Made by a program: the position numbers and the translations under genes. A stretch of DNA of 38,211 nt from a virus: IMG/VR virus record IMGVR_UViG_3300042520_002859, positions 1 to 38,211 of that record; one strand, given 5' to 3'. The notes under the pieces are model-generated. The model saw only the letters and a program-made list of their open reading frames with translations. It made no database searches and was not told the origin of the DNA. Below, one piece after another: positions 12,762 to 35,444 of this stretch (positions are counted from its first letter, which is position 1; every line of letters starts with the position of its first letter).

Positions 12762-13543
12762 AAAATATAACAGTAGTATTACCAGTTCACAAAATCGATG
12801 AAGATTATAAAGACATGTTACAGTATTCTGTAGAATCGGTTAAACAATTTTATAATGATGTAAAATTATTAATTGTTGCCCCGAATAGTTTAAAAAGTGA
12901 ACTAAGTAAAATTGATTTAGGCCAAAAATTAGAAATTAATTATCACTACCATAATAGTGATACTGATTTTTGTACACAAATAAATGAAGGAGCTAGTAAA
13001 TGCGAAACCGAATGGTTTTCAATTCTTGAGATTGATGATGTGTATCAAAAAGTTTGGTTGTCTAGTTTAAACCAATATATGGTAGAAAATCCAGAAGCAG
13101 AAGTTTTCTTACCAATTGTAAAAGATATTGATGAAAAGGGAAATTTTACAAACTTTACAAATGAATCTGTTTGGGCTTATGGCTTTTCTGAAGTTCAAGG
13201 AGAATTAGATAATGAAGTTTTATTAGAATATCAGAGCTACCAAATAAGTGGCGGTCTTTATAAAACTAAAAAGTTTTTAGAAGTTGGTGGTTTGAAATCA
13301 AATATAAAATTAACCTTTGGTTATGAACTTTTATTGAGATTGACACACAATGGCTCTAAAATTGTTGTAATTCCAAGACTTGGTTATAGACACGTGAATT
13401 TAAGAGAAGATTCTCTTTTTTGGAAATATAAAAATGATGAAACCTTAAAGTTAGGTGAAAAGGAAGCTAAATTTTGGATTGATACAGCAAAAAAAGAATT
13501 TTTCTTCACAAATAAACGAGAAGTAAATTATAATGAAAATTAA
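12758..13543 (+). CDS. GT-A family 2 glycosyltransferase
   Basis: 261 residues. The start ITVVLPVHKIDEDYKDMLQYSVESV is the family 2 opening (strand plus regularly spaced Ser). NEGASKCETEWFSILEIDDVYQ contains the acidic cluster in the position of the D-x-D metal-binding motif. The later SYQISGGLYKTKKFLEVGGL and FGYELLLRL segments match the acceptor-side helix of this family. Overlaps of 4 bases upstream and 1 base with the sigma-factor gene downstream tie it to late-gene control at the transcript level. Likely transfers a sugar to a phage or host acceptor. Confidence 0.8.
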   Translation: MKNITVVLPVHKIDEDYKDMLQYSVESVKQFYNDVKLLIVAPNSLKSELSKIDLGQKLEINYHYHNSDTDFCTQINEGASKCETEWFSILEIDDVYQKVWLSSLNQYMVENPEAEVFLPIVKDIDEKGNFTNFTNESVWAYGFSEVQGELDNEVLLEYQSYQISGGLYKTKKFLEVGGLKSNIKLTFGYELLLRLTHNGSKIVVIPRLGYRHVNLREDSLFWKYKNDETLKLGEKEAKFWIDTAKKEFFFTNKREVNYNEN

Positions 13544-14241
13544 TGCCAAGAAAACGAACCCAAAAAGTTTATTTTGGGGAGGATCAAGAAAAGGCGGTAG
13601 TTAAGTACTTAGAAAGTAGTGACGATGCAGAAAGAAACAAGATATTCAACGAATATTTACGAGAACCCCTAGTAATAATGGTGGAAAGTATTATAAGAAG
13701 ATATAAGCTTTACCGAAAAGATTTTGAATTTGAAGACTTACATACAGATACAATGTCTTTTTTAATTACTAAAATCAATAAATTTGACCATACAAAAAAC
13801 CATAAAGCATATTCATACTTTGGAACCATATGTAAGAATTACTTAATGGGGGCCATTCAAAAAGATACAAAAGACACAAATAGAAGTATTTCATATGAAG
13901 ACATATCAGAAGATATTGAAAGTAGGTTAGATTTTTCATATACAATAGACGATTATCATGTTGACTATTCTAATGTTATTATCACACTTACAAACAAACT
14001 AGAAGACTTTGTGGAAACAGAAGAATTAACAGATAATGAGAAGAAATTAGGATATGCTCTTTTAGAGATTTTTAGCAATTTTGAATCGATTTTTCAAATA
14101 GGTGATGGTAACAAGTTTAATAAAAATTTAATCCTCCTATCATTAAGGGAAATGACATCCTTATCCACTAAGGAAATTCGTATATCATTAAAAAGATATA
14201 AGACATTATATGATGGGATATTGGGGGGATTTTTAGAATAA
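13543..14241 (+). CDS. gp55: gp55-like late-transcription sigma factor (sigma70 region 2)
   Basis: 232 residues. Residues about 25-115 resemble sigma70 region 2 in phage late sigma factors: LREPLVIMVESIIRRY, then DFEFEDLHTDTMSFLITKINKFD (core-binding helix), then AYSYFGTICKNYLMGAIQK followed by a charged segment, corresponding to the -10 recognition helix. The C-terminal part has helical sequence (LSTKEIRISLKRYKTLYDGIL) that could be a short region 4-like or clamp-binding tail. T4 gp55 directs host RNA polymerase to TATAAATA late promoters together with the sliding clamp. The repeated TATTTATA motif in this window is the obvious candidate target. The ATG overlaps the stop of the GT-A gene by one base. 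Confidence 0.65.
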   Translation: MPRKRTQKVYFGEDQEKAVVKYLESSDDAERNKIFNEYLREPLVIMVESIIRRYKLYRKDFEFEDLHTDTMSFLITKINKFDHTKNHKAYSYFGTICKNYLMGAIQKDTKDTNRSISYEDISEDIESRLDFSYTIDDYHVDYSNVIITLTNKLEDFVETEELTDNEKKLGYALLEIFSNFESIFQIGDGNKFNKNLILLSLREMTSLSTKEIRISLKRYKTLYDGILGGFLE

Positions 14242-21223: not shown

Positions 21224-22966
21224 TTATCTTAAAGTATCCAAGCTAAATGTGCTCAAGCCACTTACGTTGATCACACCGAAGTAACGGTTGTTAACCATTT
21301 TCTTCGCGTATCTTGTCATGATACCTTTGATTGGTGTCATGTTAAATGGATTGTACATTGTTGGTGTTAATTGTAAAGGTACATATGGTGCGTAGATGTA
21401 ACCAGCATCCAATAATGATTTACCTTTGTGACCGATCACGATTTTACCTGCTGGTAAATATGGATCACGGTATACTTGATAACGACCAGCTAATGAACCG
21501 ATTTTCTCAATACCCATGTTGTATTGATCTTGCTCAGGAGCAGCATTTGATACGTGGAAATACTCTAAATCGTCGAATACTGCAGAAACTTCTGAAGATA
21601 CTACGATCCAGTTAGCACCACCTCTCAATGTTGTTTTATGGATTTGAGCAGAAATTTGGTTGATTTTTGTAACCAAAGTTTGGTTCCAGTCTTTCTGAGT
21701 GTAACCCATAAATGGTGTTCCACCAGTTGCACCGTACTTCCACTCGTTGTAATCCCACTTAGCAGTCCAAGCAGCACCTTTTCTAAGGTCACGTAAAATT
21801 TCACGGTCAACCTCAGCAGCGATTTGCTCAGATAATAAAGCTGTTAATTCAGCTTCAGCATCGATGTTATGGAACGCAGAAACGTCTTGTGCTAATTCTG
21901 GAGACCAGCTAGCTCTTAATTTTCTTTCAGTTACAGAAACTGTTACAGAAGAAAGATCGAAAGAAACCTCACCGATTTCATCTTCAAATTCTAAAGTTTC
22001 GTATACTCTGTAAGTTACTTTGAAGTTAGCTAAAGCTAAATCGTTAGAACTGAAATCAGATGCTGCGAAACCTGAAGTTGTACTGTATGATTCTAAGTCA
22101 ACGTTAAGGTAGATTAAACCTTCTTCGTCACAAATATCATTGAATCTGTTAAGACCAGAACCACCTTTTCTACCATACTCAACGATACCTTTACCATATT
22201 TTTGAGTTACAATGTTAAAGTTTTTAACACCGTTGTTAGCAGTTGTGTTACCAGTGATTTCAACTTGTAAAGAAGCTAAGAATTCTTCAGTGTCCATAGC
22301 ATTACCATTAACACCTACTAATTTACCTTGACCGTCTTTAGTGAAACCAGAAAGAACGATAATTGCGCTAGATACAGATGCACCACTTAAAGCAGTTGCA
22401 CTTGTAGAAGCAGCGCCATTAGAGAAAGCTACGAATGCATGAGGGTTTACTTCAGCAACTGTGAAAGAACCTTTTGAATAATCAAAAAGACCTTGATCAG
22501 CAGCATCTGAACCTTCATAGAAACGATCGTAAAGACTTCTAGCACTTGTTGTACCAGTTTCATAACCTAATGTAGCAGCATCGCTATTGCCTGGCATACC
22601 AAACGGTGCTCTGTGTGCATTAGATTGTCTTTCTTGAATTTTAGGTACGAAGTAGAACAATTTACCAATTGGTAAGTTCATAGCTTGTACAGAAACGATG
22701 TCATTCGCTAATAATTTAGAGAAAACACGACGGATGATAGGGAATACCACTGTCTCGAATGATCCTGAAGAGTCAGAAACTGCTGCTTCATTGATTAAAT
22801 AAGACGCTTGGTTTTCATACAACTGTGCGATGTTATCTTTTTGATGGCCGTCAAGACCTTCTAGGAATCCTAAGTCTTCCCATTTTTTGATGGTATCTTC
22901 TTTGATAACACGTAAGTGCTTAAGACCGATGTTACCAACCATACCTGATTCTAATAATGCTCCCAT
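21224..22966 (-). CDS. gp23: Major capsid protein (gp23-like)
   Basis: 580 residues, slightly longer than T4 gp23 (521). Key matches are NIAQLYENQASYLINEA near residues 45-61, FETVVFPIIRRVFSKLLANDIVSVQAMNLP at about 69-98, and the C-terminal-half segment RKLRASWSPELAQDVSAFHNIDAEAEL followed by LLSEQIAAEVDREILRDL. It forms the hexameric capsid shell. A candidate prohead-protease site I-N-E|A sits at residues 58-61, similar to where T4 gp23 is trimmed. Codons look less AT-biased than in neighbours (more AAC, TAC, CGT), as expected for the most abundant protein. It lies downstream of the scaffold gene (33-base gap) and ends at a very strong terminator. Confidence 0.95.
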   Translation of the reverse strand: MGALLESGMVGNIGLKHLRVIKEDTIKKWEDLGFLEGLDGHQKDNIAQLYENQASYLINEAAVSDSSGSFETVVFPIIRRVFSKLLANDIVSVQAMNLPIGKLFYFVPKIQERQSNAHRAPFGMPGNSDAATLGYETGTTSARSLYDRFYEGSDAADQGLFDYSKGSFTVAEVNPHAFVAFSNGAASTSATALSGASVSSAIIVLSGFTKDGQGKLVGVNGNAMDTEEFLASLQVEITGNTTANNGVKNFNIVTQKYGKGIVEYGRKGGSGLNRFNDICDEEGLIYLNVDLESYSTTSGFAASDFSSNDLALANFKVTYRVYETLEFEDEIGEVSFDLSSVTVSVTERKLRASWSPELAQDVSAFHNIDAEAELTALLSEQIAAEVDREILRDLRKGAAWTAKWDYNEWKYGATGGTPFMGYTQKDWNQTLVTKINQISAQIHKTTLRGGANWIVVSSEVSAVFDDLEYFHVSNAAPEQDQYNMGIEKIGSLAGRYQVYRDPYLPAGKIVIGHKGKSLLDAGYIYAPYVPLQLTPTMYNPFNMTPIKGIMTRYAKKMVNNRYFGVINVSGLSTFSLDTLR

Positions 22967-22999
22967 TTTTTAGTTTGTTTTATTTGTTTTTTTAGTTTA

Positions 23000-24163
23000 T
23001 TATTTTAATTTACTCATTAAGTCTTTCATTCTTCTGAATTGTGGGTTTTCGTAAGCTTTTGATTCAGCCAACATTTCTTGTGAAGAAGAGCTTGAAGGAG
23101 TATTTGCAATTTTCTCAACTACAGACTCTGTTACTGGTTTTTTAGTATCTAGTTCTGTTTTGATAGAATTATATAGATTTTTAGATTCGTTTATAGTTGA
23201 AATTGAATCAAATCTCTTTAAAATATTCAATTTCTCTTGTTTTGTTGTAGAATGTTCAGTGAATAAACGTGTTGCATAAGCTAAATTTGCGTTGAACACT
23301 GCAACTTCATTAAGTTTTTCTTTGAAAAGAACTAAAGCTTTTTTGTATTCAGCATTTTGCTTCTTAAGGTTGTCAACTTCTTCATTCATTGCACCTGCAG
23401 CAAATACTTTCTTACTTTTTAAACCAGCTCTGTTAGCTTCATTTTTATCACCATGAGTGTTCCATTTTGTTCTAGCAGCTTCTGTTGCTTCAACTTCCAT
23501 AGTATCGTCTTCAGAAACTTCTTCTTCAGAATCTTCTTCGTCGTCTAATGTAATTTCGTAAACAGTTTCTTCTCCTTCACCTTCAGCAACATCTTCCATA
23601 GACTCTTCTTCGTTCCAATCTTCAGAAACTTCCATTTCTTCTTGATCTTCTTCAGATTCGTCTAGTTTAATGATGTACTCATCATCTTCGTCTTTAAGTT
23701 CGATATTGTTACCGTCCTTTTTAACTACAATACCATCTTCATCAGACATTGCTTTAAATACTTTTAATACCTCTTCATCAGAAGCATTAGTCATATCAAG
23801 CATATCATCATCTGCAGCTGGCATATCACCCATTGACGGCATATCATCCATTTCTGGAGACTCGTCATCGATGTCTTTAGATGGTTCATCATTTATCGAG
23901 GGGATTTCTTCATCATCAGCATTCTCAGCTTCATCTTCATCATCTGAATCTGGCTGTTCTGACATATCTTCTGATTCCTCTTCTGTAGGTTCCATAACAT
24001 CTTCTTCAGTTGCTACTTCTTCCTCTTTTTCTGACTCTTTAAGCAACTCATTTAGTTCTTGCTTCATTACTGAAGAAAGTATACCTTTTGCGTTTTGCTT
24101 TACCGCTTCTTCAAGTGTATTAACTTGAAGTAATGCTTGTTCTAGAATAGATTTTTCGGTCAT
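23000..24163 (-). CDS. gp22: Prohead core scaffolding protein (gp22-like)
   Basis: 387 residues. It is extremely acidic from about residue 40 to 230, dominated by Asp/Glu with Met/Ser/Pro. A Lys/Glu coiled-coil region follows (MNEEVDNLKKQNAEYKKALVLFKEKLNEVAVFNANLAYATRL), then the terminal helix YENPQFRRMKDLMSKL. That architecture and its position between prohead protease and capsid match T4 gene 22, the internal scaffold that is degraded by gp21 during maturation. Several [LI]-x-E sites, the T4 protease preference, occur, such as MLAES near the C-terminus. A terminator and a TATTTATA motif separate it from the protease gene, so it and the capsid can be transcribed as a strong late unit. Confidence 0.85.
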   Translation of the reverse strand: MTEKSILEQALLQVNTLEEAVKQNAKGILSSVMKQELNELLKESEKEEEVATEEDVMEPTEEESEDMSEQPDSDDEDEAENADDEEIPSINDEPSKDIDDESPEMDDMPSMGDMPAADDDMLDMTNASDEEVLKVFKAMSDEDGIVVKKDGNNIELKDEDDEYIIKLDESEEDQEEMEVSEDWNEEESMEDVAEGEGEETVYEITLDDEEDSEEEVSEDDTMEVEATEAARTKWNTHGDKNEANRAGLKSKKVFAAGAMNEEVDNLKKQNAEYKKALVLFKEKLNEVAVFNANLAYATRLFTEHSTTKQEKLNILKRFDSISTINESKNLYNSIKTELDTKKPVTESVVEKIANTPSSSSSQEMLAESKAYENPQFRRMKDLMSKLK

Positions 24164-24182
24164 CTTTTTAATTTATTTACTA

Positions 24183-24190
24183 TATAAATA
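24183..24190 (-). promoter_or_regulatory. TATTTATA late-promoter-like motif before scaffold and capsid
   Basis: On the minus strand gtatatttatatag, 19 bases before the scaffold ATG at 24163, and directly after the terminator-like hairpin of the protease gene. Confidence 0.55.
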
Positions 24191-24212
24191 TACACATAAT
24201 CAAAAAAATCTA

Positions 24213-24230
24213 CTTTTCAATATTGAAAAG
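24213..24230 (-). terminator. Terminator after the prohead protease gene
   Basis: Perfect inverted repeat CTTTTCAAT/ATTGAAAAG. The outer flanks AAATC and GATTT also pair. On the minus strand it is followed by a run of seven T. It is AT-rich and so weaker than the capsid terminator. Confidence 0.6.
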
Positions 24231-24253
24231 AGTGATTTTTTCTCGTTTTATTA

Positions 24254-24943
24254 TTATTTGCTTAGAAAAGAATCTAGCCTACCCATTAGTTTTTTCATTC
24301 TATCTTCAACAATAGGCTTTTCCTCAACAGTCTCATTGAATTTATCCTTGTCGCTAATATCTTGAAACACATAAGCGCCAGGTGTAGATGGGGAAGAAAC
24401 TAAATCAAAACATACCAATTCAAAATCATCTTGAACAATATTTTGTCCTTTGATTTGTTTTAATGAACCAACACCTCTTGATGAAATACCTAATGTAACC
24501 CCGTTTAAAATTAACATAGCTGCTTGATCACCTTTACAGCTAACAATGCCCATTTTTCTCCAACCTGGAGATGTTAATATTTTGATTTTACCCATAAGGG
24601 TTTTACCATCCCACCATGTTTCTGTAATTGTGTGAGATACTCTATCTAGATCGATAAGAGAAGAAGATGGGTGATTTAATTCGTTTAGTGCAGACCCCTT
24701 TTTTATTATTGTTTGGTATTTTTCATTTTCCCTTTTTAAAAGATTTTCAGGGTAAATTCTACCATTCTTATTTGGGGTATCGAATTTTTGTAAAACAGCA
24801 TACAGAATAAGATCCTGATCGGTATCCTTATTCTGTATTTCTGTTATTATATTTTTGTTTTTATAATCTTCGGGTGAGATGTGTCCAGCGTCGTATTCTA
24901 TTAAAATCCCCTTACCCGTTTCATTTGGTCCCAATACTTTCAT
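24254..24943 (-). CDS. gp21: Prohead maturation protease (gp21-like serine protease)
   Basis: 229 residues. Conserved segments in order are LQKFDTPNKNGRIYPENLL (51-69), ALNELNHPSSSLIDLDRVSH (85-104), ETWWDGKTLMGKIKIL (108-123), GVTLGISSRGVGSL (148-161) and VQDDFELVCFDLVSSPSTPGAYV (170-192). His91 and Ser154 are the probable catalytic His and Ser; the D-D-F-E and V-S-x-P-S-T-P-G-A motifs are typical of the T4 gp21 group. It cleaves scaffold and capsid proteins inside the prohead. It lies upstream of scaffold and capsid, as in T4, with its own TATTTATA motif. Confidence 0.93.
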   Translation of the reverse strand: MKVLGPNETGKGILIEYDAGHISPEDYKNKNIITEIQNKDTDQDLILYAVLQKFDTPNKNGRIYPENLLKRENEKYQTIIKKGSALNELNHPSSSLIDLDRVSHTITETWWDGKTLMGKIKILTSPGWRKMGIVSCKGDQAAMLILNGVTLGISSRGVGSLKQIKGQNIVQDDFELVCFDLVSSPSTPGAYVFQDISDKDKFNETVEEKPIVEDRMKKLMGRLDSFLSK

Positions 24944-24965
24944 TTATTGATATATTAATATACCA

Positions 24966-24973
24966 TATAAATA
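24966..24973 (-). promoter_or_regulatory. TATTTATA late-promoter-like motif before prohead protease
   Basis: On the minus strand cttgtatttatatgg, 22 bases before ATG 24943 in a 44-base gap. Confidence 0.5.
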
Positions 24974-24987
24974 CAAGCATTTTTGAA

Positions 24988-25416
24988 TCAAATCTTACAT
25001 TTATTAAAATTAAATAATGTTTTATCAGTTAAACAGTTATCAATCGACGTTTGAATAAACGTTTTTAATAATGTTTTGATATTTTGTGATTTAACGTCAA
25101 AAAAATTATCTACAAATAAAGTTACTTCTAAGTTCATAAAAGATCTTTTATCTACTTTTATACCTTTTGTCCTAATATCAAGATCTACAATACTTTCTTT
25201 TTTGAAATAGCTATTGAAATCATATGACCTAATATGCTCTTTTAAAGTTTTTCGTGCAGACATTATCGTTCTGTCAAAATCTAATTCTTCATTTTTAGGA
25301 GCTACCCAAGCATTTAATTTCAAATAAATGGTTTTTAAATTTTTATAATCTACGGTACCATAACCGATTTTTACTTCTTTATAATCCCCTAAAGGAATAT
25401 ATTTCCCAATTTTCAT
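24988..25416 (-). CDS. Hypothetical head-cluster protein
   Basis: 142 residues, not recognised. Alternating strands and helices: VKIGYGTVDYKNLKTIYLKLNAWV, then DFDRTIMSARKTLKEHIRSY, then RSFMNLEVTLFVDNFFD and a final helix with LLKTFIQTSIDNCL. No catalytic motif or membrane segment is seen. It lies between portal-side genes and the prohead protease, the place held by small core proteins in T4, but no similarity to those is claimed. Its start faces the bS21 gene across a 94-base AT-rich gap. Confidence 0.55.
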   Translation of the reverse strand: MKIGKYIPLGDYKEVKIGYGTVDYKNLKTIYLKLNAWVAPKNEELDFDRTIMSARKTLKEHIRSYDFNSYFKKESIVDLDIRTKGIKVDKRSFMNLEVTLFVDNFFDVKSQNIKTLLKTFIQTSIDNCLTDKTLFNFNKCKI

Positions 25417-25498
25417 TAACTTTTACATAATTTTTTTTTATTTTATGGTGTAGTATAATAATAAGAAAAAAATTTTAATTTTCCAAAAAAGTGGGTTA

Positions 25499-25506
25499 TA
25501 TTTATT
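25499..25506 (+). promoter_or_regulatory. TATTTATT late-promoter-like motif before bS21
   Basis: The octamer (within gggttatatttattccat) ends 4 bases before ATG 25511, oriented opposite to the surrounding head genes. Confidence 0.45.
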
Positions 25507-25510
25507 CCAT

Positions 25511-25702
25511 ATGATAATAATTGATTTAAAAAAAGAAAAGAACCTAGAATCAGCACTAAGAACTTATAAGTATAAAGTTCAAAGAGTAAAACAAGTTCAA
25601 AATTTAAGAGAAAGACAAGAGTTTGTTAAACCCTCAGTAAAAAGACGTGCTGAAATTAATAAAGCTATCTATGTTCAAAAAAAGAAAAACGGTCTTGATT
25701 AA
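25511..25702 (+). CDS. rpsU: Phage-encoded ribosomal protein bS21
   Basis: 63 residues, the normal size for Bacteroidota bS21. The start MIIIDLKKEKNLESALRTYK and the basic signature FVKPSVKRRAEINKAIYVQ (38-56) match bS21, a small-subunit protein next to the 3' end of 16S rRNA. Tyr54 is present. Structural work on Flavobacterium ribosomes implicates bS21, including a Tyr near this position, in hiding the anti-Shine-Dalgarno sequence. Phage-encoded bS21 has been described in other phages and linked to late infection. The gene sits antisense between two head genes, overlaps the stop of the 25699-26451 gene, has a late-promoter-like motif and ends in a palindromic terminator. Likely incorporated into host ribosomes to bias translation toward phage mRNAs. 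Confidence 0.88.
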   Translation: MIIIDLKKEKNLESALRTYKYKVQRVKQVQNLRERQEFVKPSVKRRAEINKAIYVQKKKNGLD

Positions 25703-25713
25703 TTATCAAGACC
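25691..25713. terminator. Bidirectional terminator containing both stop codons
   Basis: Perfect 9-base inverted repeat GGTCTTGAT (25691-25699), loop TAATT, ATCAAGACC (25705-25713). On the minus strand it is followed by GTTTTTCTTTTTTT; on the plus strand by ATTTCTT. The stop codons of bS21 (25700-25702) and the convergent gene (25699-25701) overlap in the loop. Confidence 0.85.
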
Positions 25714-26451
25714 ATTTCTTAGTTCTATTAATCTAAAGTAATTTAATCTAGAGGTTTCTTTATTATTAACCTCTTCTTTTACCTTATTTAATTTATTATT
25801 CATTTCACTATCTGTAGATTCAGTTAAAATAGACTCTATTTTCGAATTAATATTTTCCTTTAATTCGCTTGTTTTTACAACAATATCATCATTAGTCAAA
25901 GACATTATGTTTTTAAATTCAACTTGCTGTTCCTCACTTAATGTATTACCATAAAGCACATTAAAATTGTTTGCTAAAACCCCATATAATAAATTCTCAT
26001 TCATTGTGAATGGTACAGTGTTTTTTTCTTCAGTGGAAGCTTGCTTCTTTTTTGTTAGGTGTTCTATTAATTTTTTTCTAGCAATTACCTTATTTTCAAT
26101 ATTAGATAATGTATCTTGCGTAAACAACTGGTCTAAAGATTCATATAATTCATTACCCTCAGTCTCAAATTCGCCTAGTTTTGCGTTTAATTCCTCACAA
26201 AAAACCAAAAGCTCATTATTGATAGATTGACTATTTAATAAATTCTCAAGCCCCTCAACATATAATTTTGCTGTTTCTTTATCTTCAATGAATTTGTTTT
26301 CCATTTCTTCATAGAACAGATACATCTCTTTGAATTTTTTGTTTTCAGTTATTGATTTAAGAATATTCTTTAATTCAGTTTTATTCTTTTCCCCGTAAGA
26401 CTCTGTTAATTTTTTTATTAACTTACTTTTAATGATGCCAATTTTGCTCAT
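25699..26451 (-). CDS. Helical head-cluster protein after portal
   Basis: 250 residues, nearly all helical and rich in Lys/Glu/Asn. It contains KLIKKLTESYGEKNKTELKN, several coiled-coil stretches and a central segment NTVPFTMNENLLYGVLANNFNVLYG. No Cys-rich, enzymatic or membrane motif apart from a single Cys (VFCEEL). It lies 2 bases downstream of portal. In T4 small prohead core proteins occupy this position, so a core or scaffold-associated role is possible. Its stop codon overlaps the convergent bS21 stop. Confidence 0.6.
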   Translation of the reverse strand: MSKIGIIKSKLIKKLTESYGEKNKTELKNILKSITENKKFKEMYLFYEEMENKFIEDKETAKLYVEGLENLLNSQSINNELLVFCEELNAKLGEFETEGNELYESLDQLFTQDTLSNIENKVIARKKLIEHLTKKKQASTEEKNTVPFTMNENLLYGVLANNFNVLYGNTLSEEQQVEFKNIMSLTNDDIVVKTSELKENINSKIESILTESTDSEMNNKLNKVKEEVNNKETSRLNYFRLIELRNGLDN

Positions 26452-26453
26452 TT

Positions 26454-28253
26454 TTATTGATTTAAAATGTCTTTTATTTTATTTTCTATTTCATAAATAT
26501 TCTTCTTAGCCTTCTCAAGATCAAATAAATCTGAAATATCTGTACTCTCACCTAATAAATTATTAATTTTTATTTTCCTATTCTCACTTAATGGTTCAGA
26601 CGCAGCCTCACCACCTCCACCAGACGGAGATGGAGGAGGCATATCCATACCACCTTCTTCACCACCTTCCGCAGCTGCTGCATCTAATTTTTGTCTTTCT
26701 TCTTCCGGAATACCGTATTTAGAATCGACTTCATCAAATATACCAGATCTAGGAATAATTTTAGCGGTGTTAGTTAATTCAGTACCCATAGCTCTTTCCA
26801 AACGTTGTTGTTGAAGATCTAGGATAACTTCATTATCACTCATACCTAAAATATTTTTCTTAGCCCAAGTATGTGAAACTGGTAGAATACCCACTTGAGA
26901 TTGATCTGATGTTGCGTCTTTATAAAGAGTAACTTTTTCTTTCCATTGTTCAATCTTTAATAGATCTGCTTGAGATGATGGATTAGTTAAACCTAATGTA
27001 AAGTTTTCTAATTCATCTTCTAAACCTAAAAGATATAAATGTATTAATGCAATTTTGTTTAGCTCTTGAATTAATGACTTCTGAACTCTATTAATTGTTC
27101 TCGCAAAACGAATATCCATCAAAGCAAGATTCTTACCATCACCAACAACTTCTTCAAAACCTAAAAATGCTTTAGGTATACGAAGTGCTGCTAATAGTTT
27201 CTTTTGAATGTATTCAATATCGGCGATCTCACCTAAGTTCTGTGCTCCGGCTAATGTCTCAATTGGACTAGGCGCTGCTGGATCACGAACAGGTATAAAA
27301 TAATCTTGATCAATAGCCATTTGATTATATCTCATATCCACTTGGCCGTTCCTTTGATCAACTACAGTATCTCTTTTAAATTTACTTGCAACACGTTGTA
27401 CATACGCTTCAATATCTTTATCATCCATGTTACCAACAAACACTTTAAACACCCTTCTTTCTGGTGCTCTTGATGTTCTATAAATTAACATAGCGTCTTC
27501 AGCTAAAAGTAATTGTTTCCAAATTCTTCTAACTTTATCTAACATGGATGTACCATAAGGAAGCTTTCTATCGTCACCCAATAATCTAAAGTGAGCAACC
27601 TCCCATGATTGGAATTCCATATCTTTATTGGTCCAACTAAAACGTAATTCTTTAATTGGCATTTTTATTTCACCCTGGTTTGGTGTTCTAGTCTTTGCAC
27701 CTTCCCATCTTTCTATTTCAATGTTTGGTAATTGTTGACAACCAATAACCCCCTTTTCAGGATCACTTTTTAAATACACAAAGTTGTCTCCATATTTGCA
27801 TAGGTTTCTAGCCCACATTTGTAGGTTAGTGTTAATATCTAATCTATTCTCAAATAAATCAGTTAAAATATCTTTAACTCTAGTAGATTCTGAATAAACA
27901 CTTAGTATTGTTCCCTTTTCAGATATTGTTGTTGATTCTTCAGAATAAATGTCTAATGCTGCTGAAATTTCAGGAGTAAATTCCATTGATTCAAAATCAT
28001 AATACGCAGCTAATCTATTTGGTTCATAATAAACTGATTGATTATATAATGAATTATCTAATTTCGCCCACTTATCAAAAAGAAATTGAGATTGTTGCGC
28101 CTGTAATTTAGCCTTTTCAAATTCAACTGGATCATCAGTTTTCAGTAATTCTTCTCTAGAAAAATTAAATGAGGGTGGGTTTATATCACCTCTATTCTGA
28201 AAACCAAATATTTTGGTTAATTTTTGAAAAACGGTCAAGTCTTGATTTGCCAT
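26454..28253 (-). CDS. gp20: Portal vertex protein (gp20-like)
   Basis: 599 residues. Characteristic stretches are YYDFESMEFTPEISAALDIYSEEST, then LQMWARNLCKYGDNFVYL, EVAHFRLLGDDRKLPYGTSMLDKVRRIWKQL, EDAMLIYRTSRAPERRVFKVFVG and YIQKKLLAALRIPKAFLGFEE. These match the T4-type portal family in order and spacing. The C-terminus carries a Gly/Pro/Glu-rich segment (about 535-560) and a helix. The protein forms the dodecameric DNA gate of the capsid and docks the terminase, whose gene is directly upstream (44-base gap). A TATTTATA motif lies 4 bases before the ATG. Confidence 0.93.
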   Translation of the reverse strand: MANQDLTVFQKLTKIFGFQNRGDINPPSFNFSREELLKTDDPVEFEKAKLQAQQSQFLFDKWAKLDNSLYNQSVYYEPNRLAAYYDFESMEFTPEISAALDIYSEESTTISEKGTILSVYSESTRVKDILTDLFENRLDINTNLQMWARNLCKYGDNFVYLKSDPEKGVIGCQQLPNIEIERWEGAKTRTPNQGEIKMPIKELRFSWTNKDMEFQSWEVAHFRLLGDDRKLPYGTSMLDKVRRIWKQLLLAEDAMLIYRTSRAPERRVFKVFVGNMDDKDIEAYVQRVASKFKRDTVVDQRNGQVDMRYNQMAIDQDYFIPVRDPAAPSPIETLAGAQNLGEIADIEYIQKKLLAALRIPKAFLGFEEVVGDGKNLALMDIRFARTINRVQKSLIQELNKIALIHLYLLGLEDELENFTLGLTNPSSQADLLKIEQWKEKVTLYKDATSDQSQVGILPVSHTWAKKNILGMSDNEVILDLQQQRLERAMGTELTNTAKIIPRSGIFDEVDSKYGIPEEERQKLDAAAAEGGEEGGMDMPPPSPSGGGGEAASEPLSENRKIKINNLLGESTDISDLFDLEKAKKNIYEIENKIKDILNQ

Positions 28254-28257
28254 ACTA

Positions 28258-28265
28258 TATAAATA
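28258..28265 (-). promoter_or_regulatory. TATTTATA late-promoter-like motif before portal
   Basis: On the minus strand atagtatttatatag, ending 4 bases before ATG 28253. Confidence 0.5.
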
Positions 28266-28297
28266 CTATTCTATTTAATCTAATTAATTTTTAAGGA

Positions 28298-30091
28298 TTA
28301 ATCAACCCTTTTTTTTGACCCAAATAACCAAGAATATTGTGTGTACTGTTCCTTAGCTGGTATATTTGATGTTGATGATTTTGCATAAGGAGAACTGTCA
28401 ACTTGCATCATACCAACTTGATCAAAAGATGACCCGTATGAATAAGCGGTATTTTGTGGCGCCTCATACGTTCTTTCAGACATAACCCAAGATTCTAACA
28501 TTGCTTTATTTTGTTGTTCATTTCGTTTTAATTGTGTAAAAGAAATATCACCAACATACATTGCAATAGCCATACTCATAATTCCATCATCATGAGCTCC
28601 CTTCATGTGGTTAGGTTTACCATTTATGTAAACAAATGTGTTTAGTTCATTTAATAACCTATGTGATCTAATGATGAAATCATGTCTTAATTGTTCTTCA
28701 AAACATGATACAATTTGTGTTCTCTTATTATTGAAATTTATTCCAGGTATTTTTTCTAAAGCTTTATGGTTATATTCCCACATATTTTTAGTGTTAACAC
28801 CATCAATAAATAAATCTTTATAATTCATTTCTTGTAGCTTTCTTGATGTTGCTACACCCATACCCCCAGTAATATCAATAACAATAAACGCATTATATAA
28901 TACACCCCATTTATATGCAATAGAGGCTAAATCGTCTGGTGGTATTTTACCTATGTATTCTAATACCTGTTCTCTATCATCAAAATCAATAATATTGATT
29001 GCGGAAAAATCTTCACTATCACCTCTACTAACGTCAACACCCATAATATATCTATGCCCCTCTAATGGTTCTTTCCATTGCCATAAAGTACCTTGCATAT
29101 ATTTCTCATTAGGTGCTTTAACCATTGTCTTGGCTATTTTCTCCATAGTTTCCGAAGGTATAACACTATCACCCGATCCTAAGAAATCACATTCAAGTTC
29201 TTGAGCAATTTTTCTCTTATCATACTTGAATTTTTTTGACATAGATTCGAACCAACTTGAATATGGTTGATACCCTTCATCCATGTATTGAGCATATTTT
29301 GTTAAATCATATTCTGGATCATTTAATGTTATTTCATCATCATTATATTGTTCTCTATTCAACATATAATGTACAATATCTGGGACTTTTAACCATTTTA
29401 GATCTTTAGTATAACGTGGATCTTTAAACCATCTTAAATCTGTAATATGAAAGTCGTTAATACCTCTTATTGCTTGTTCATATACACCATAATAAATTGG
29501 ATCGTAACCGTTTGGTGTTGAAATCAATATAATCTTACCACCGGTAGATAAAGATGCCATAGAAGCCGCCCAGAAGTCTTCACCAGCCTCAATATACGCG
29601 GCCTCATCAAATACAAGTACTGTTGGTGTAAAACCACGAAGAGCATCTGTAGATGTTGCAACGGCTTTTACCTCAGATCCATTATTTAATCTAAATCTAC
29701 TTTCCGAGTTTTTATCAGGTGAGAATCCCACATTAATCCATTCTGGCCACTGATCTAAAAAATGACGAACTTTATTAGCCATTTCAATGGCTGTGTCTCT
29801 TTTGTTAGCAATAATCAATACTCTCTCCGGATTTTCTGGTTTTGCTAATTGTAGTTTTTTCGATAACCATGCAGCTGTTACTGTTGTAACACCAGCCTGT
29901 CTATACTTTCTAGTGATATTTTCGTTATATGTTTCGTAATCTTTTAATAATTGAATCTGATCTGGAAACAATTCGAGCGGAACATATTTCTTTTGAGTAT
30001 TATCATATGTTTGTAGATATGTTCTCAACGCATATGGTGTATCTTTAATTACACGTGCATACTCTTTTAGTTGTTCTATTTTGTTGTTCAT
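28298..30091 (-). CDS. gp17: Terminase large subunit (gp17-like)
   Basis: 597 residues. The ATPase region has a deviant Walker A RKYRQAGVTT (61-70), in which the usual Gly-Lys is Gly-Val and the basic residues lie upstream. Walker B is PTVLVFDEAAYIE and the coupling motif ILISTPNG. The C-terminal RNase H-type nuclease has GVDVSRGDSEDFSAINII, then AFIVIDITGGMG and KGAHDDGIMSMAIAMY, supplying the Asp triad. It packages DNA into the prohead and cuts it at headful. The gene lies after a terminator and a TATTTATA motif and before portal. Confidence 0.94.
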   Translation of the reverse strand: MNNKIEQLKEYARVIKDTPYALRTYLQTYDNTQKKYVPLELFPDQIQLLKDYETYNENITRKYRQAGVTTVTAAWLSKKLQLAKPENPERVLIIANKRDTAIEMANKVRHFLDQWPEWINVGFSPDKNSESRFRLNNGSEVKAVATSTDALRGFTPTVLVFDEAAYIEAGEDFWAASMASLSTGGKIILISTPNGYDPIYYGVYEQAIRGINDFHITDLRWFKDPRYTKDLKWLKVPDIVHYMLNREQYNDDEITLNDPEYDLTKYAQYMDEGYQPYSSWFESMSKKFKYDKRKIAQELECDFLGSGDSVIPSETMEKIAKTMVKAPNEKYMQGTLWQWKEPLEGHRYIMGVDVSRGDSEDFSAINIIDFDDREQVLEYIGKIPPDDLASIAYKWGVLYNAFIVIDITGGMGVATSRKLQEMNYKDLFIDGVNTKNMWEYNHKALEKIPGINFNNKRTQIVSCFEEQLRHDFIIRSHRLLNELNTFVYINGKPNHMKGAHDDGIMSMAIAMYVGDISFTQLKRNEQQNKAMLESWVMSERTYEAPQNTAYSYGSSFDQVGMMQVDSSPYAKSSTSNIPAKEQYTQYSWLFGSKKRVD

Positions 30092-30094
30092 ATA

Positions 30095-30102
30095 TATAAA
30101 TA
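30095..30102 (-). promoter_or_regulatory. TATTTATA late-promoter-like motif before terminase
   Basis: On the minus strand tttttatatttatatat, ending 3 bases before ATG 30091; it starts within 4 bases of the T-run of the preceding terminator. Confidence 0.55.
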
Positions 30103-30105
30103 TAA

Positions 30106-30129
30106 AAAGTGGTCAAAATTGACCACTTT
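30106..30129 (-). terminator. Terminator between the 30133 gene and terminase
   Basis: Inverted repeat AAAGTGGTCAA/TTGACCACTTT with AA at the centre. On the minus strand it is followed by TTTTTAT. It begins 4 bases after the upstream gene's stop codon. Confidence 0.85.
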
Positions 30130-30132
30130 AAT

Positions 30133-31458
30133 TTATTTAGACAATCCCACGTTGGTACCTCGCAAAAGGTCGTCTAAATCATCGGGACCGTCATCGTCGT
30201 CATCATTAGAGCCATCGTAATTGTCATCATCATAATCTTCATATTCCTTTTTTAATAAAATTGCTTCTCGCATAATTTCATTAAACACTTGAGTAGCTAA
30301 TCTATTTTTTGATTCGTCTTGACTTACCACATTAGAAATTATTTTTAAAAACTCTTTTGCTGGAATGTCGTAAAGAATTTTTTCAAACCAACTAATTAAA
30401 CCTTTGTTTTCGTCTAAAAACATTTCATCTGGTAACAACATGCGTAACTTTTCATATAACTCAGGACCCATTCTCAATTGAATTGGCTCGTTACTTAATA
30501 CATCTGTCTGTCCCATCACCTTTTGTGCCATTCCAGGTTCTTTAGGTAAACCATGTCTAGCTGTAGCCTCTTTTATACCCTTAATCAATTCGTGACATAA
30601 AACAGGAAACATTGTTCCTTTAGCAACTATTTTTGTGTCTACTGAATCATCTCCTTCATATTCACCCTCATCACCGCCTCCTTCAGAATCTGGTTCATCT
30701 AGAAAATTTTGACCGATCACTCCCGAACCAGTTTGACTCATTCTATCTATCATTTCATCCATTGTAAAATACATGAAATCCGTGATTGACATAACTCTTC
30801 TATATAATGGATAAAGTCTAGGGTCAATTTCGTCTAATTTTGATTTTACTTCTGGTTTTTCGTAAATATGGTGTGCTTTTTTAGCTGCACCTTGTACGAT
30901 TGCATTGATAATATTTCTTTTGTGTTTCTCTAATTCTAATTTTTCTTCTTGAGTTAAATCTTCAACATCAAATGAAGGTATTTGAATTCCAGATTCTTCG
31001 TCATCATTCTCTTCATCGTCAGTTTCTTCTTCAGGTGAATATCTAAATTTTGAAGTGTCTATACTTCCAGTTTCATTCAAACTAATTTCAAATTGATACC
31101 AATTAGGATTTATTTCAGTTTCATCAATACATGCTTGTAGAGCTAATTCTTTTAATGCTGGAATATGATTATTTTCAATTCTAACAATTTGAGAGAATCC
31201 AGACATCATTTCGTTAAACAACATACCCTGTACTTGTTGAGAACTTAAGTCTTGAATATTTGTAACTCTTCTTAAATGGTCAACAATTTTCTTAAACCTT
31301 GCGCCAATTAAACGTTCAACATCCTGAGGGCCTCTACCCATAGCTGGGTTTGAACCGTATAAACTATCTGGACTACCGGCCGTTCTTTCCAAATTAGAAC
31401 CCATCCTTTCTGGATAGTTACCATAATCTATAGCTTCTTTAATTTTTTTACTTTTCAT
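30133..31458 (-). CDS. Large hypothetical head-module protein
   Basis: 441 residues, not recognised. The N-terminal part has YPERMGSNLERTAGSPDSLYG and a helical region (GARFKKIVDHLRRVTNIQDL, GMLFNEMMSGFSQIVRIENN). Then comes an acidic linker (EEETDDEENDDEESG) and a helical core (NAIVQGAAKKAHHIYEKPEV; YPLYRRVMSITDFMYFTMDEMIDRM). The C-terminal half has FPVLCHELIKGIKEATARHG, and the extreme C-terminus is poly-Asp. The H-E-L-I-K-G segment faintly recalls metal-binding helices but the second ligand set is not clear, so no enzyme call is made. The start overlaps the stop of the 31458 gene by one base. Confidence 0.6.
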   Translation of the reverse strand: MKSKKIKEAIDYGNYPERMGSNLERTAGSPDSLYGSNPAMGRGPQDVERLIGARFKKIVDHLRRVTNIQDLSSQQVQGMLFNEMMSGFSQIVRIENNHIPALKELALQACIDETEINPNWYQFEISLNETGSIDTSKFRYSPEEETDDEENDDEESGIQIPSFDVEDLTQEEKLELEKHKRNIINAIVQGAAKKAHHIYEKPEVKSKLDEIDPRLYPLYRRVMSITDFMYFTMDEMIDRMSQTGSGVIGQNFLDEPDSEGGGDEGEYEGDDSVDTKIVAKGTMFPVLCHELIKGIKEATARHGLPKEPGMAQKVMGQTDVLSNEPIQLRMGPELYEKLRMLLPDEMFLDENKGLISWFEKILYDIPAKEFLKIISNVVSQDESKNRLATQVFNEIMREAILLKKEYEDYDDDNYDGSNDDDDDGPDDLDDLLRGTNVGLSK

Positions 31459-32393
31459 TAGTTATTACTAAAAATTTTGTTAATCATGTTAATTACCCTA
31501 GACTTCGCTTCTTCACCACTAATCTCCTTAGCCTTAGCTTTTGGTACAGGATTAGGTAAAGGTTGTTTTTTGGGATCTTGTGGTCTTTGTCCTGGATGTC
31601 TTGGCTTTTCTCTTGTTGGTCTATCTGTATCTGGCTTAGATGGTGCTGGTTTAACATCCGGCTTAACATCTGGTTGTGCCATATCAAATTCATTCATAAA
31701 TTCAGGTAAATGATCAATCATTTCTTTCTCATATAAATCAGAAGATTCATTAATTTTTTCTTTTACTAATGAAACCATATCACCTTTAGTAACTAAACTA
31801 TGGTAATTAGAATTAATAGTATTTTCAACAAACTCATGTAAATTTTTGAAAACTGGTTTTACCTTTTTAGATTTTCTTAATTGTCCAACTGAGATTACCT
31901 CATCTTCTTTAACTTCCTTAAATTTTATTGACTCATTTGTATCTCTATTATACCACTTTTTATTCTTTTCATTCCAACGATAACCTAAATTCATGGCCGC
32001 TTCAGCAAATCCATCATCGTCAAAATCTTCGCTACCGTATTCCCCATAATTCCATCCCATATCAGACATAGCATTGTATAATTCCTCATCAGTTTGCCCA
32101 TCGTCTGATTTAGATGATTTTTTAGTATCTTTCTTTTTAGAACTTTCTTTAACTTCAATGTTTTTATCCTTAAGAATACTTGGATCATGTGCTGCTTTAT
32201 CTAAAATTGCATTAACAGCCGCTTTATCTTTTGGATCACCAGCAGTATAAATAGTTTTAGTTGTTGTAACTGTTTGAGCTTCTTTTAAAACCTTATTTGC
32301 AAATTTTTCTAATTGCTTATCGTTAAAACTAACTAAAGTTTTTTCTGAAAATCCTTCAGACATTAGTTTTTGTATTAATTGTGCTCTTTTCAT
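31458..32393 (-). CDS. Hypothetical protein with helical N-terminal motif
   Basis: 311 residues, not recognised. The N-terminal 40 residues (RAQLIQKLMSEGFSEKTLVS, then FNDKQLEKFANKVLKEA) form a compact helical motif resembling a small two-helix binding domain. The middle is charged and repetitive, with MSDMGWNYGEYGSEDFDDDGFAEAAMNLGYRW. The C-terminal part has a Pro-rich linker (PDVKPDVKPAPSKPDTDRP) and a short helix. Overlaps on both sides (1 base and 4 bases) place it in a tightly coupled operon with 30133 and 32390. Probably a virion or assembly protein. Confidence 0.55.
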   Translation of the reverse strand: MKRAQLIQKLMSEGFSEKTLVSFNDKQLEKFANKVLKEAQTVTTTKTIYTAGDPKDKAAVNAILDKAAHDPSILKDKNIEVKESSKKKDTKKSSKSDDGQTDEELYNAMSDMGWNYGEYGSEDFDDDGFAEAAMNLGYRWNEKNKKWYNRDTNESIKFKEVKEDEVISVGQLRKSKKVKPVFKNLHEFVENTINSNYHSLVTKGDMVSLVKEKINESSDLYEKEMIDHLPEFMNEFDMAQPDVKPDVKPAPSKPDTDRPTREKPRHPGQRPQDPKKQPLPNPVPKAKAKEISGEEAKSRVINMINKIFSNN

Positions 32394-32791
32394 TTTAATT
32401 TAAAATTTATTTCTTCGTTAATTAATCTAAGCCCTTTGGTTGCTAATTTAGTAGTTACACTTTCTAATTCTTCAGCAAAATGAAAAGAAATCCTTATTGG
32501 TCTCTCTTCAGCCTCCATATCAAAAGCTTCCCATCCTAAAGCAACAATCCCATCAACAGCGTCGATTACACCAAAATAGTCAGAATTTTGTACTAGTTCA
32601 AGCTTTAAATCACAATTTTTTAATAGCCCAACTAAATCGATACTTTCTATTTCTGGTGGTATTGCTCTACCTGCAGATGGGATTATGAACCACTCTTCTA
32701 CTAATGTGTCTGGATCATTACCAAAGATAAATTCATATTGTCTTTGGCCCTTATAGTCTTGACCCAGTTCATTAATATAGAGTAGATACAT
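32390..32791 (-). CDS. Conserved-looking hypothetical protein
   Basis: 133 residues, not recognised. A compact alpha/beta protein: YLLYINELGQDYKGQRQYEFIFG, a loop with WFIIPSAGRAIPPE, then LELVQNSDYFGVIDAVDGIVALGWEAF and ISFHFAEELESVTTKLATKG. No catalytic signature, Cys cluster or membrane segment is obvious. The ATG overlaps the stop of the upstream gene by one base and its own stop overlaps the downstream start by 4 bases. Close packing suggests a partner of its neighbours. Confidence 0.6.
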   Translation of the reverse strand: MYLLYINELGQDYKGQRQYEFIFGNDPDTLVEEWFIIPSAGRAIPPEIESIDLVGLLKNCDLKLELVQNSDYFGVIDAVDGIVALGWEAFDMEAEERPIRISFHFAEELESVTTKLATKGLRLINEEINFKLK

Positions 32792-33840
32792 TATTCAAAA
32801 TATTTACTTAATGTTGTGTTGATACTTTCGTTTATATCATTTAATTCAGGAGTGATATCTAATTCATCTTCAGCCTCTTCTTCCGGATTAATTTTAGTTC
32901 CATCAGGATTTCTTGATAAAGGTTCTAAACCAGCTTCACTTCTTTCGAAATCATCAGTGTCAAAGAAATAATATTCACCCAAATCTTGTTCTTCCTCTTC
33001 AGGAGATTCAAAATTTGAATTAACCAACTCTTCTAATTTAGAAATTCTTTCTGCTAAATCATCTTCAGGTGTTGGCTCATCTTCTGCAGATGGTTCATCA
33101 CTTGGTGCTGGTTCTTCACCTGCTACTGGTTCTTCAGTTTCATCTCTATCGAATTTTTTACCAATTTCCTCAATATCGTCCTCTTCTAATTTGTCAAGGT
33201 CAACAGCAGAAATGATCATGTTCAAAACGTATTTGATATCATCACTTTCCATTTTAACTTGCTGATCCCTTAATTCTTGTCCAAGTTTTCCTGCAAATTT
33301 TTGGATTTCCGCCATATAATCTGATCTTTTACCTTCTTCAGGAGACATAGTTGGTTCTTCACCTGACATTTGTGGTTCATCAGCAGGCATTTCTGGTGCT
33401 GGTTCTGGTGCTGGTTCAGTATCGCCGGCTGGAGGTAATGCTGGTGGCATATCGTTTACAGCATCTTGAGGCATTGGAGCCTCTTCTTTTGGCTTATTTG
33501 GCTTTAAAACATATTTTGTAACTTCTTCATTCAATTCTTGAGAACTTAATAGTTCAAGTCTTTTCAATGCTTCAGCATATGAAGTAAATCTATTTTTATT
33601 CTTCATAAACAATCCACCGATATAATCTAAGGCTTGTTCATTTAGTCCTTTTTTCACATAATAACCATCTTTTTCTCTAACAATACCATAAACACCATTA
33701 GAACTCTCTTTTACAAGTTCTGCATTTTTAGTTTGTTTTGAAGATGATGATCTTTCGTTATAGTAGGCTAACTCAAGGATTCTCCTCATTTTTTCGTCCC
33801 CTTGTAGCTTTTCGCTACCTATAGGTTTTAAATCTCCCAT
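32791..33840 (-). CDS. Acidic Pro-rich structural-like protein
   Basis: 349 residues. The N-terminal ~115 residues are folded-looking: MRRILELAYYNERSSSSKQ, YGIVREKDGYYVKKGLNEQALDYIGGLF and FTSYAEALKRLELLSSQ. The rest is strongly acidic and Pro/Glu-rich (about 120-165 and 230-260) with an intervening helical segment YMAEIQKFAGKLGQELRDQQVKM. A C-terminal helix ends NESINTTLSKYFE. Composition resembles the scaffold protein of the same phage and other prohead or neck proteins. No enzymatic motif. It has a TATTTATT motif 34 bases upstream and starts an operon of four overlapping genes. Confidence 0.55.
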   Translation of the reverse strand: MGDLKPIGSEKLQGDEKMRRILELAYYNERSSSSKQTKNAELVKESSNGVYGIVREKDGYYVKKGLNEQALDYIGGLFMKNKNRFTSYAEALKRLELLSSQELNEEVTKYVLKPNKPKEEAPMPQDAVNDMPPALPPAGDTEPAPEPAPEMPADEPQMSGEEPTMSPEEGKRSDYMAEIQKFAGKLGQELRDQQVKMESDDIKYVLNMIISAVDLDKLEEDDIEEIGKKFDRDETEEPVAGEEPAPSDEPSAEDEPTPEDDLAERISKLEELVNSNFESPEEEEQDLGEYYFFDTDDFERSEAGLEPLSRNPDGTKINPEEEAEDELDITPELNDINESINTTLSKYFE

Positions 33841-33874
33841 TGTAATAATATTAAAATAAGCTTATTCTTAATCA

Positions 33875-33882
33875 ATAAATAT
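33875..33882 (-). promoter_or_regulatory. TATTTATT late-promoter-like motif
   Basis: On the minus strand tcaatatttattgatt, 34 bases before ATG 33840 in a 72-base gap. Next to it an AATAAGCTTATT palindrome lies at 33855-33866. Confidence 0.4.
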
Positions 33883-33912
33883 TGAATAAAAGGAAAAAAA
33901 TACAGTTTACAA

Positions 33913-34704
33913 TTATGATAGAGATAATTTTTTGTTTGATACCTCTTTTTTCAAGTTCATTAATTTTTCTATGTATCCGTTTCTTCTTAACAATTTGAAT
34001 GTTAAGTTTTCATATGAATATTCCCCACCAGTAGTTAAACCGGTCTTTCTAAATTTTTTGAGTTTATCTCTTAGATCTAATATTTGTTTTGTAACATCAT
34101 TTCCCGAACTAAAAGAGTCTAATAATGTGTCAATTTTCTTTGCAAAATATTCACCTTTACCTAAAATTTGATTTGTATCTATCGTTTCTTTTTTTGCTGA
34201 TGGTTCAACTACCCATTCATTATTAAGAATAGAATAAACACCCGTTGATGAATGTTCTTCATCTATATCTTGAACATATATCTCAACATCAAACCCTTTA
34301 ATTTTAATATCATTTTGTTCATTCCACACGCCCTTTTTAGCATCAAAAAATTCTTTTACTATGTCATTTAAAGCTGTGGATGTTGATTTATCTCCATCAT
34401 TTAGTTCATCCATATCAACCAATATATGTAAATCAACGTCAGAATATTCGGACCAGTTATAGTTAGCTAAAGAACCGGTTAATATAACGTCATGAATAAA
34501 GAAATCAACCCCAGTAAAATCAATAAAATTATCAGTTATTTCCAATAATCTATCAACAATCTCTTTTTTCATCACATAAGAACCATTACCCCCTTTTTCA
34601 AATATAGTAGGGCATAAATGATCTTTTATTTGAAAAGATTTGATAATTTTATTATCGACCTCCGGATCTGATAATTCTAAAAGTTCATCGACTAGATTAT
34701 TCAT
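33913..34704 (-). CDS. MNT-type nucleotidyltransferase-fold protein
   Basis: 263 residues. The signature ILTGSLANYNWSEYSDVDLHIL (74-95) gives the Gly77-Ser78 and Asp89-x-Asp91 motif of the polymerase-beta nucleotidyltransferase fold, and FDVEIYVQD (Asp139) supplies the third acidic residue. The active site therefore looks intact. The C-terminal ~100 residues are helical (KKIDTLLDSFSSGND; LLRRNGYIEKLMNLKKEV). Such proteins transfer a nucleotide to a protein, RNA or small molecule; similar ones occur in T4-like marine phages with unknown substrate. Its ATG overlaps the stop of the KTSC gene by one base. Confidence 0.78.
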   Translation of the reverse strand: MNNLVDELLELSDPEVDNKIIKSFQIKDHLCPTIFEKGGNGSYVMKKEIVDRLLEITDNFIDFTGVDFFIHDVILTGSLANYNWSEYSDVDLHILVDMDELNDGDKSTSTALNDIVKEFFDAKKGVWNEQNDIKIKGFDVEIYVQDIDEEHSSTGVYSILNNEWVVEPSAKKETIDTNQILGKGEYFAKKIDTLLDSFSSGNDVTKQILDLRDKLKKFRKTGLTTGGEYSYENLTFKLLRRNGYIEKLMNLKKEVSNKKLSLS

Positions 34705-34949: not shown

Positions 34950-34993
34950 ATTCTCTTTTTTATAAAATATAAGACTTTTTAAAATAATAAAAA

Positions 34994-35012
34994 AGCCCCA
35001 ATTAATGGGGCT
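34994..35012 (-). terminator. Terminator after the Hsp20 gene
   Basis: On the minus strand AGCCCCA, loop TTAAT, TGGGGCT is followed by TTTTTATTATTTT. It lies 22 bases past the Hsp20 stop. Confidence 0.9.
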
Positions 35013-35033
35013 CAGATTTTGCAACAATAAATG

Positions 35034-35402: not shown

Positions 35403-35444
35403 AGTTTTTATTTTTTTATTTAGCATTTTGCAAATTACAAACCA

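Follow-up and report, generated by a model that had tools for sequence, protein, structure and literature searches.

The bS21 gene and its surroundings

The window (the whole 38,211-nt stretch of viral DNA analysed here) contains a T4-type head module at 21224-35462. A gene for ribosomal protein bS21 is the sole + strand gene of this module, lying between the protease and major capsid protein (MCP) genes and the portal and large terminase subunit (TerL) genes. The features referred to in the text are as follows.

25511..25702, + strand: phage rpsU-like gene for bS21, 63 aa, Tyr54 retained (Pfam, PHROG, 7JIL alignment, dN/dS)
25499..25506, + strand: TATTTATT, putative late-promoter motif 4 nt before the bS21 ATG (-12 to -5 from the A of the ATG)
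25691..25713, no strand assigned: inverted repeat GGTCTTGAT-taatt-ATCAAGACC, T-rich on both outer sides, putative bidirectional terminator
25699..26451, - strand: convergent 250-aa gene, ending in RNGLDN, with a 4-bp overlap with bS21
24988..25416, - strand: divergent 142-aa gene of unknown function
26454..28253, - strand: portal protein, gp20-like (Pfam, PHROG)
28259..28265, - strand: TATTTAT 5 nt before the portal ATG
28298..30091, - strand: TerL (Pfam, PHROG)
30096..30102, - strand: TATTTAT 4 nt before the TerL ATG
30106..30129, - strand: putative terminator hairpin closing the upstream unit, immediately ahead of the TerL promoter motif
24254..24943, - strand: prohead protease, gp21-like, with TATTTAT 23 nt upstream at 24967-24973 (Pfam, PHROG)
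23000..24163, - strand: 387-aa gene in the scaffold position, with TATTTAT 20 nt upstream at 24184-24190
21224..22966, - strand: MCP, gp23-like, without TATTTAT in the 50 nt upstream (Pfam, PHROG)
13543..14241, + strand: candidate gp55-like late sigma factor, sigma-70 region 2 (remote homology; in 9/9 phage records searched)

A sequence-only reading of this DNA had described bS21 as antisense within the head cluster. This holds for the window and also for its relatives, as in 105/105 of those holding both genes bS21 is encoded on the strand opposite to TerL. The same arrangement was reported for 47 Bacteroidota jumbo phages, in which bS21 is found on the opposite strand within a conserved TerL/portal/protease/MCP block (Chen et al. 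2022, PMC9723584). The window shares this placement, and an aromatic residue at position 54, with clades a-e of that study, whose phages have predicted Bacteroidota hosts.

The 63-aa ORF was matched by Pfam Ribosomal_S21 (PF01165; 1.5e-10, 41 bits against a curated cut-off of 27), the match spanning positions 2-54 of 55, and the PHROG ribosomal protein S21 family gave a second match. No other domain was matched in the Pfam and PHROG scans, and the earlier identification as a full-length bS21 is thereby upheld. The best solved relative is bS21 of F. johnsoniae (PDB 7JIL, 4.9e-12), whose alignment to the window protein is ungapped; homology with host bS21 thus fixes the start codon. In this alignment Tyr54 of the window protein lies opposite the anti-SD-stacking Tyr54 of F. 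johnsoniae, as the sequence-only reading had expected. When 57 phage rows were aligned with 49 host rows, Tyr was found at position 54 in 49/49 host rows and an aromatic residue in 57/57 phage rows (Y in 53, F in 3 and H in 1). The core positions common to host bS21, as checked, are nearly all conserved in phage bS21. Moreover, dN/dS among close relatives is 0.03-0.19, and the protein is therefore under selection. Judged by sequence, with Tyr54 in register, the window protein would belong to the Bacteroidia-type, anti-SD-occluding bS21. The link from Tyr54 to the anti-SD had been put forward as new; however, it had already appeared in print in 2022 for this group of phages, with Tyr54 or another aromatic residue in all 47 phages predicted to stack on A1534 (PMC9723584).

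Divergence of phage and host bS21

Phage and Flavobacterium-type host bS21 fall into two groups, the branch separating them having a support of 100/99; the tree was built on few columns and its finer branching is unsure. Val23 is present in 56/57 phage rows against Phe in 49/49 host rows, and Gln28 in 54/57 phage rows against Thr in 48/49 host rows. The N-terminal region bearing residues 23 and 28 was placed over the mRNA path by Chen et al. 2022 (PMC9723584). Thus, the phage protein shares its family, length, KPS core and Tyr54 with Flavobacterium host bS21 (7JIL; PMC9976891), but differs in its separate clade, in V23/Q28 for F23/T28, in the lack of an SD and in its putative phage promoter. 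When the phage protein was used as query against genome contigs there were zero host bS21 matches; host sequences were instead retrieved with the F. johnsoniae protein. According to the accounts in Chen et al. 2022 and McNutt et al. 2023, the bS21 of Pelagibacter phage HTVC008M incorporates into E. coli 70S ribosomes. That protein is phage-encoded like the window bS21, but comes from a different host phylum and, as far as those accounts go, is without the Bacteroidota-type anti-SD occlusion.

Probable terminator hairpins beneath the bS21 C-terminus and before TerL

The 9-bp arms of the inverted repeat (25691-25699 with 25705-25713) include the last bS21 codons GGT CTT GAT and the bases that follow, whilst the convergent gene ends in the other arm. 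The hairpin therefore encodes the C-termini (NGLD) of both proteins. Nearly all convergent neighbours end in NGL, and GGNCT...AGNCC is present in 47/52 distinct relatives. Paired synonymous changes are found among relatives L001-L160, GGT to GGA being accompanied by ACC to TCC, and AAT to AAC by a change in its partner. Two relatives (L137 and L141) have a C-terminus without NGL altogether, and in these the repeat is absent too. The conserved phage C-terminus was taken by Chen et al. 2022 (PMC9723584) as a hint of ribosome function. A bidirectional terminator, as the repeat appears to be, would be a sufficient alternative explanation for its last residues, and this earlier sign of protein function may be at least partly a terminator footprint.

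At TerL, a hairpin followed by a T-run is present in 50/50 distinct upstream regions, with the stem ending 13-19 nt before the ATG. These hairpins comprise 25 different stem strings, and the motif occupies the space left before the ATG. Terminator, putative promoter motif and ATG are thus packed into ~40 nt (30089-30129 in the window; 50/50 relatives).

Position of the TATTTAT motif

As an over-abundant word in the window TATTTATT was rejected, with 11 occurrences against 11.5 by chance; only its position is significant. Because the count is at chance level, the single example before bS21 proves little alone. Counted by position, TATTTAT is found 4-6 nt before an ATG 7 times in the window, against 0.05 expected. 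A 287-kb relative (G001) has 25 genes with the motif at a gap of 4-6 nt (0.5-0.95 expected), 4 at 7-10 nt and 35 at 11-17 nt (1.2-2.4 expected), and the near class of a 121-kb relative (G003) numbers 12 against 0.10 expected. This positional pattern was not found in 400 kb of Flavobacterium genome (2 against 0.34 expected), where enrichment was seen for the host box TAnnTTTG, at 18-52 nt upstream. The motif-bearing genes of G001 include those for portal, TerL, baseplate wedge, baseplate hub, head-tail adaptor and endolysin, as well as tRNA nucleotidyltransferase, an antiterminator-like protein and an HNH endonuclease.

Gaps were also counted gene by gene in distinct relatives, taken as IMG/VR loci. 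Before TerL the strict motif lies at a gap of 4-7 nt in 50/50 and before portal at 0-6 nt in 53/53, whilst for the protease it lies at 14-23 nt in 46/47 (at 6 nt in the remaining one) and for the scaffold-position gene at 19-27 nt in 40/40. For bS21 it lies at 2-7 nt in 40/54, around one quarter of phage bS21 genes having no strict motif there (16/60 in one set, 14/54 in another). It was not found within 50 nt upstream of MCP in 41/41, and TATTTAT is absent from the 50 nt upstream of the divergent 142-aa gene in 50/53. This placement across the head genes fits the transcription units of Chen et al. 2022 (PMC9723584), in which MCP is joined with its preceding gene and the protease with its following gene; MCP probably depends on the promoter of the preceding gene. 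In related phages MCP is among the most transcribed genes (PMC9723584), despite having no near motif.

A candidate late promoter and sigma factor

TATTTAT has the appearance of a late promoter, and a gp55-like sigma factor encoded in the window probably reads it. The late-type character proposed by the sequence-only reading gains support from the phage-wide positional enrichment, from the absence of the motif in an inferred early region and from the presence of the sigma candidate. That candidate was matched by phrog_234 in 6/6 members scanned and in 9/9 phage records including the window, and Sigma70_r2 was found in 5/6 of those scanned. Its best PDB profile match was T4 gp55 (E 0.004); hhalign gave an E of 0.0011 but a probability of 20%, and individual sequences match weakly (E 1e-4 to 1e-6). 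By these matches, 13543-14241 appears homologous to the gp55-type late sigma family, remotely. A further family, phrog_12791, gave no match, although its control matched nowhere either. An AlphaFold model of the candidate was of low confidence (pLDDT 59) and too poor for a fold search.

The inferred early region of G001 (140-180 kb) has many short genes and 26 host sigma-A-type boxes, and contains no TATTTAT genes at gaps of 4-6 or 11-17 nt. Within it, in the probable early region at 140-168 kb (L177-L178), many short genes have A-rich leaders and are preceded by GTATATTTG-type boxes, and most of the proteins scanned there are without known function.

Chen et al. 2022 (PMC9723584) reported late-stage bS21 transcripts alongside those of structural genes. 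Late expression, which the sequence-only reading had predicted from the motif, was therefore already published, whilst the promoter motif is absent from that study and stands as a new element. Amongst 60 relatives, 22 combine the late motif with a host sigma-A-type box that lies 17-18 nt ahead of the bS21 ATG, 22 (the window and its nearest relatives among them) have the late motif only, 4 have the host-type box only and 12 have neither. Given the host-type box in some relatives, late-only bS21 expression is predicted for the window, not for the group. In the 22 relatives with both (e.g. L064 and L026), the host-type box TATATTTG is found at a fixed spacing before the late motif, which suggests tandem early and late promoters. 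Further upstream there is a CCAAAA element, likewise conserved.

T4 late transcription shares with this system a short -10-type motif before structural genes, a gp55-like sigma and a T4-type head module. However, T4 late promoters (TATAAATA) are located 14-28 nt from the ATG, whereas TATTTAT is located here at 4-6 or 11-27 nt. The T4 motif was also tried as a late promoter here and rejected, TATAAAT not being enriched at a gap of 4-6 nt. With TATTTAT 4-6 nt from the ATG, closer than in T4, many phage mRNAs should be leaderless.

Predicted near-leaderless transcripts

The host sigma-A -7 box is located at -12 to -5 from the RNA start (PMC9723704). TATTTATT occupies -12 to -5 from the bS21 ATG, and the RNA start is therefore predicted at about the ATG itself (25511). 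This motif geometry predicts little or no leader on the mRNAs of bS21, TerL and portal. A pyrimidine is present at -1 in 33/36 predicted leaderless (near-class) genes against 160/303 others (p = 3e-6), as expected for an RNA start at the A of the ATG. Motif geometry, the -1 pyrimidine and the terminator spacing thus agree with a predicted RNA 5′ end at the AUG. Loss of a Kozak-like A at -3, considered as a sign of the leaderless state, was not significant (p = 0.11-0.51), and the search for a fixed initiator in the short-leader class found an A-rich sequence without a clear single start. Leaderless transcripts make up only 5.5% of mapped mRNAs in F. psychrophilum (PMC9723704), and in F. johnsoniae 87% of mRNAs have a leader longer than 10 nt. 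One paper states that phage transcripts are often leaderless; in the open-access literature we found no leaderless late transcripts described for Bacteroidota phages.

Absence of the SD and the host rpsU switch

SD-like sequence precedes 0/44 window genes, in line with the earlier observation that gene starts throughout the window lack an SD. To compare bS21 genes, 80 Flavobacterium-type rpsU and 60 distinct phage bS21 genes were paired with a Flavobacterium-like 16S tail, entered by hand. An extended SD was found in 80/80 host rpsU (-18.4 to -22.8 kcal/mol) and an SD in 0/60 phage bS21 genes (median pairing +0.8 kcal/mol). The phage gene is therefore without the host feedback element.

The extended SD of host rpsU is preferred by ribosomes without bS21, which are poor on SD-less mRNAs, and both Y54A and C-terminal deletion raise rpsU translation (McNutt et al. 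2023, PMC9976891). From this published mechanism and the retained Tyr54, phage bS21 on ribosomes should lower rpsU translation. McNutt et al. 2023 (PMC9976891) speculated that the host replenishes bS21 during infection via autoregulation; our comparison suggests that the phage may blunt this replenishment. Retention of Tyr54 suggests that ribosomes carrying the phage protein would stay SD-blind, as they normally are. The effect most clearly predicted for it therefore concerns host rpsU, the only host mRNA needing an exposed anti-SD, and not the SD-less late mRNAs of the phage. We infer that rpsU shut-off is the most likely reason for Tyr54 being kept and the SD being lost.

Role of the phage bS21

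The best explanation, and one we consider probable, is that the phage replaces host bS21 with a version freed from the host control loop. Host rpsU output is feedback-limited, since its mRNA has an extended SD and is translated by ribosomes lacking bS21. The SD-free phage bS21 would be transcribed from the TATTTAT late promoter, most likely by host RNA polymerase using the gp55-like sigma of the phage, and with the motif so close to the ATG its mRNA would be leaderless or nearly so, like those of TerL and portal. As phage bS21 fills ribosomes late in infection, Tyr54 would fold the 16S 3′ tail away and the ribosomes would be kept SD-blind, suiting the SD-less phage mRNAs. Host rpsU translation would thereby be switched off, and new and repaired 30S subunits would take phage bS21. 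Of these steps, we infer the RNA start, the late timing in this phage, the incorporation and the rpsU shut-off.

Replacement of host bS21 in favour of phage mRNAs is a hypothesis of Chen et al. 2022 (PMC9723584), in which the words promoter, motif, leaderless and autoregulation are absent. The interpretation is thus largely published, and what is new is regulatory: a putative phage-wide late promoter, probable leaderless transcripts, a missing SD switch and a likely terminator within coding sequence. To the clades of Chen et al. 2022 we add the late motif, the loss of the SD that host rpsU has, and the terminator that underlies the C-terminus.

Both Chen et al. 2022 and the sequence-only reading proposed specialised ribosomes, in which phage bS21 shifts mRNA selection towards phage late mRNAs. 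This would work through the divergent N-terminal helix, possibly tuned to leaderless mRNAs. The phage-specific Val23 and Gln28 lie where mRNA would pass, in the same region as was singled out by Chen et al. 2022 (PMC9723584); bS21 is late and co-expressed with structural genes in related phages (PMC9723584), and many motif-bearing genes look leaderless. However, only part of them do, the divergence could by itself reflect drift or escape from host factors, and most host mRNAs are SD-less too, such that Tyr54 does not discriminate. We therefore regard specialisation as possible but unlikely. Much the same standing is given to simple supply, by which phage bS21 completes 30S subunits late, when host rpsU mRNA is gone, with selectivity and rpsU unaffected. 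A late bS21 shortage would hurt the phage, given that ribosomes without it are poor on SD-less mRNAs, and supply would agree with the strong purifying selection and the near-complete conservation of core residues common to host bS21. It leaves the fixed phage-specific residues unaccounted for, and any ribosome occupancy should reduce rpsU translation according to McNutt et al. 2023 (PMC9976891). A bolder scenario, which we hold only tentatively and think somewhat doubtful even beside these two, is that the host bS21 feedback loop is turned against the host, with SD-free, leaderless late bS21 silencing rpsU and yielding phage-specific ribosomes whose altered N-terminal helix suits leaderless late mRNAs.

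TATTTAT might instead be a translation-initiation element, in keeping with the tight 4-6 nt spacing to the ATG in ~40% of G001 motif-bearing genes. This appears improbable, as there is a second class at 11-17 nt with few genes at 7-10 nt, the protease and scaffold-position genes have it at 14-27 nt, and the TerL terminator hairpins end directly before it (50/50). Moreover, the pattern is missing from inferred early genes and from host starts, though the ribosomes are the same. The least probable account, to which we give very little credence, is that phage bS21 has a role away from the ribosome or becomes part of the virion, as raised by Chen et al. 2022; its gene does lie inside the head module, but the checked core positions common to host bS21 are kept and no other domain was matched.

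Under the favoured replacement of host bS21, the idea of ribosome takeover becomes testable in the genetically tractable F. johnsoniae, with reporters for the rpsU switch. A general preference for phage mRNAs is replaced by a specific, measurable prediction, the loss of rpsU translation. For lake phages of a widespread uncultured group, the analysis also supplies a putative late promoter together with a candidate sigma factor.

Lastly, the window carries a gene for an ATP-dependent (Lon-like) protease at 35560-37578 (+ strand), with a host-type TATGTTTG box upstream. Removal of host bS21 by a phage protease was a speculation of McNutt et al. 2023 (PMC9976891).
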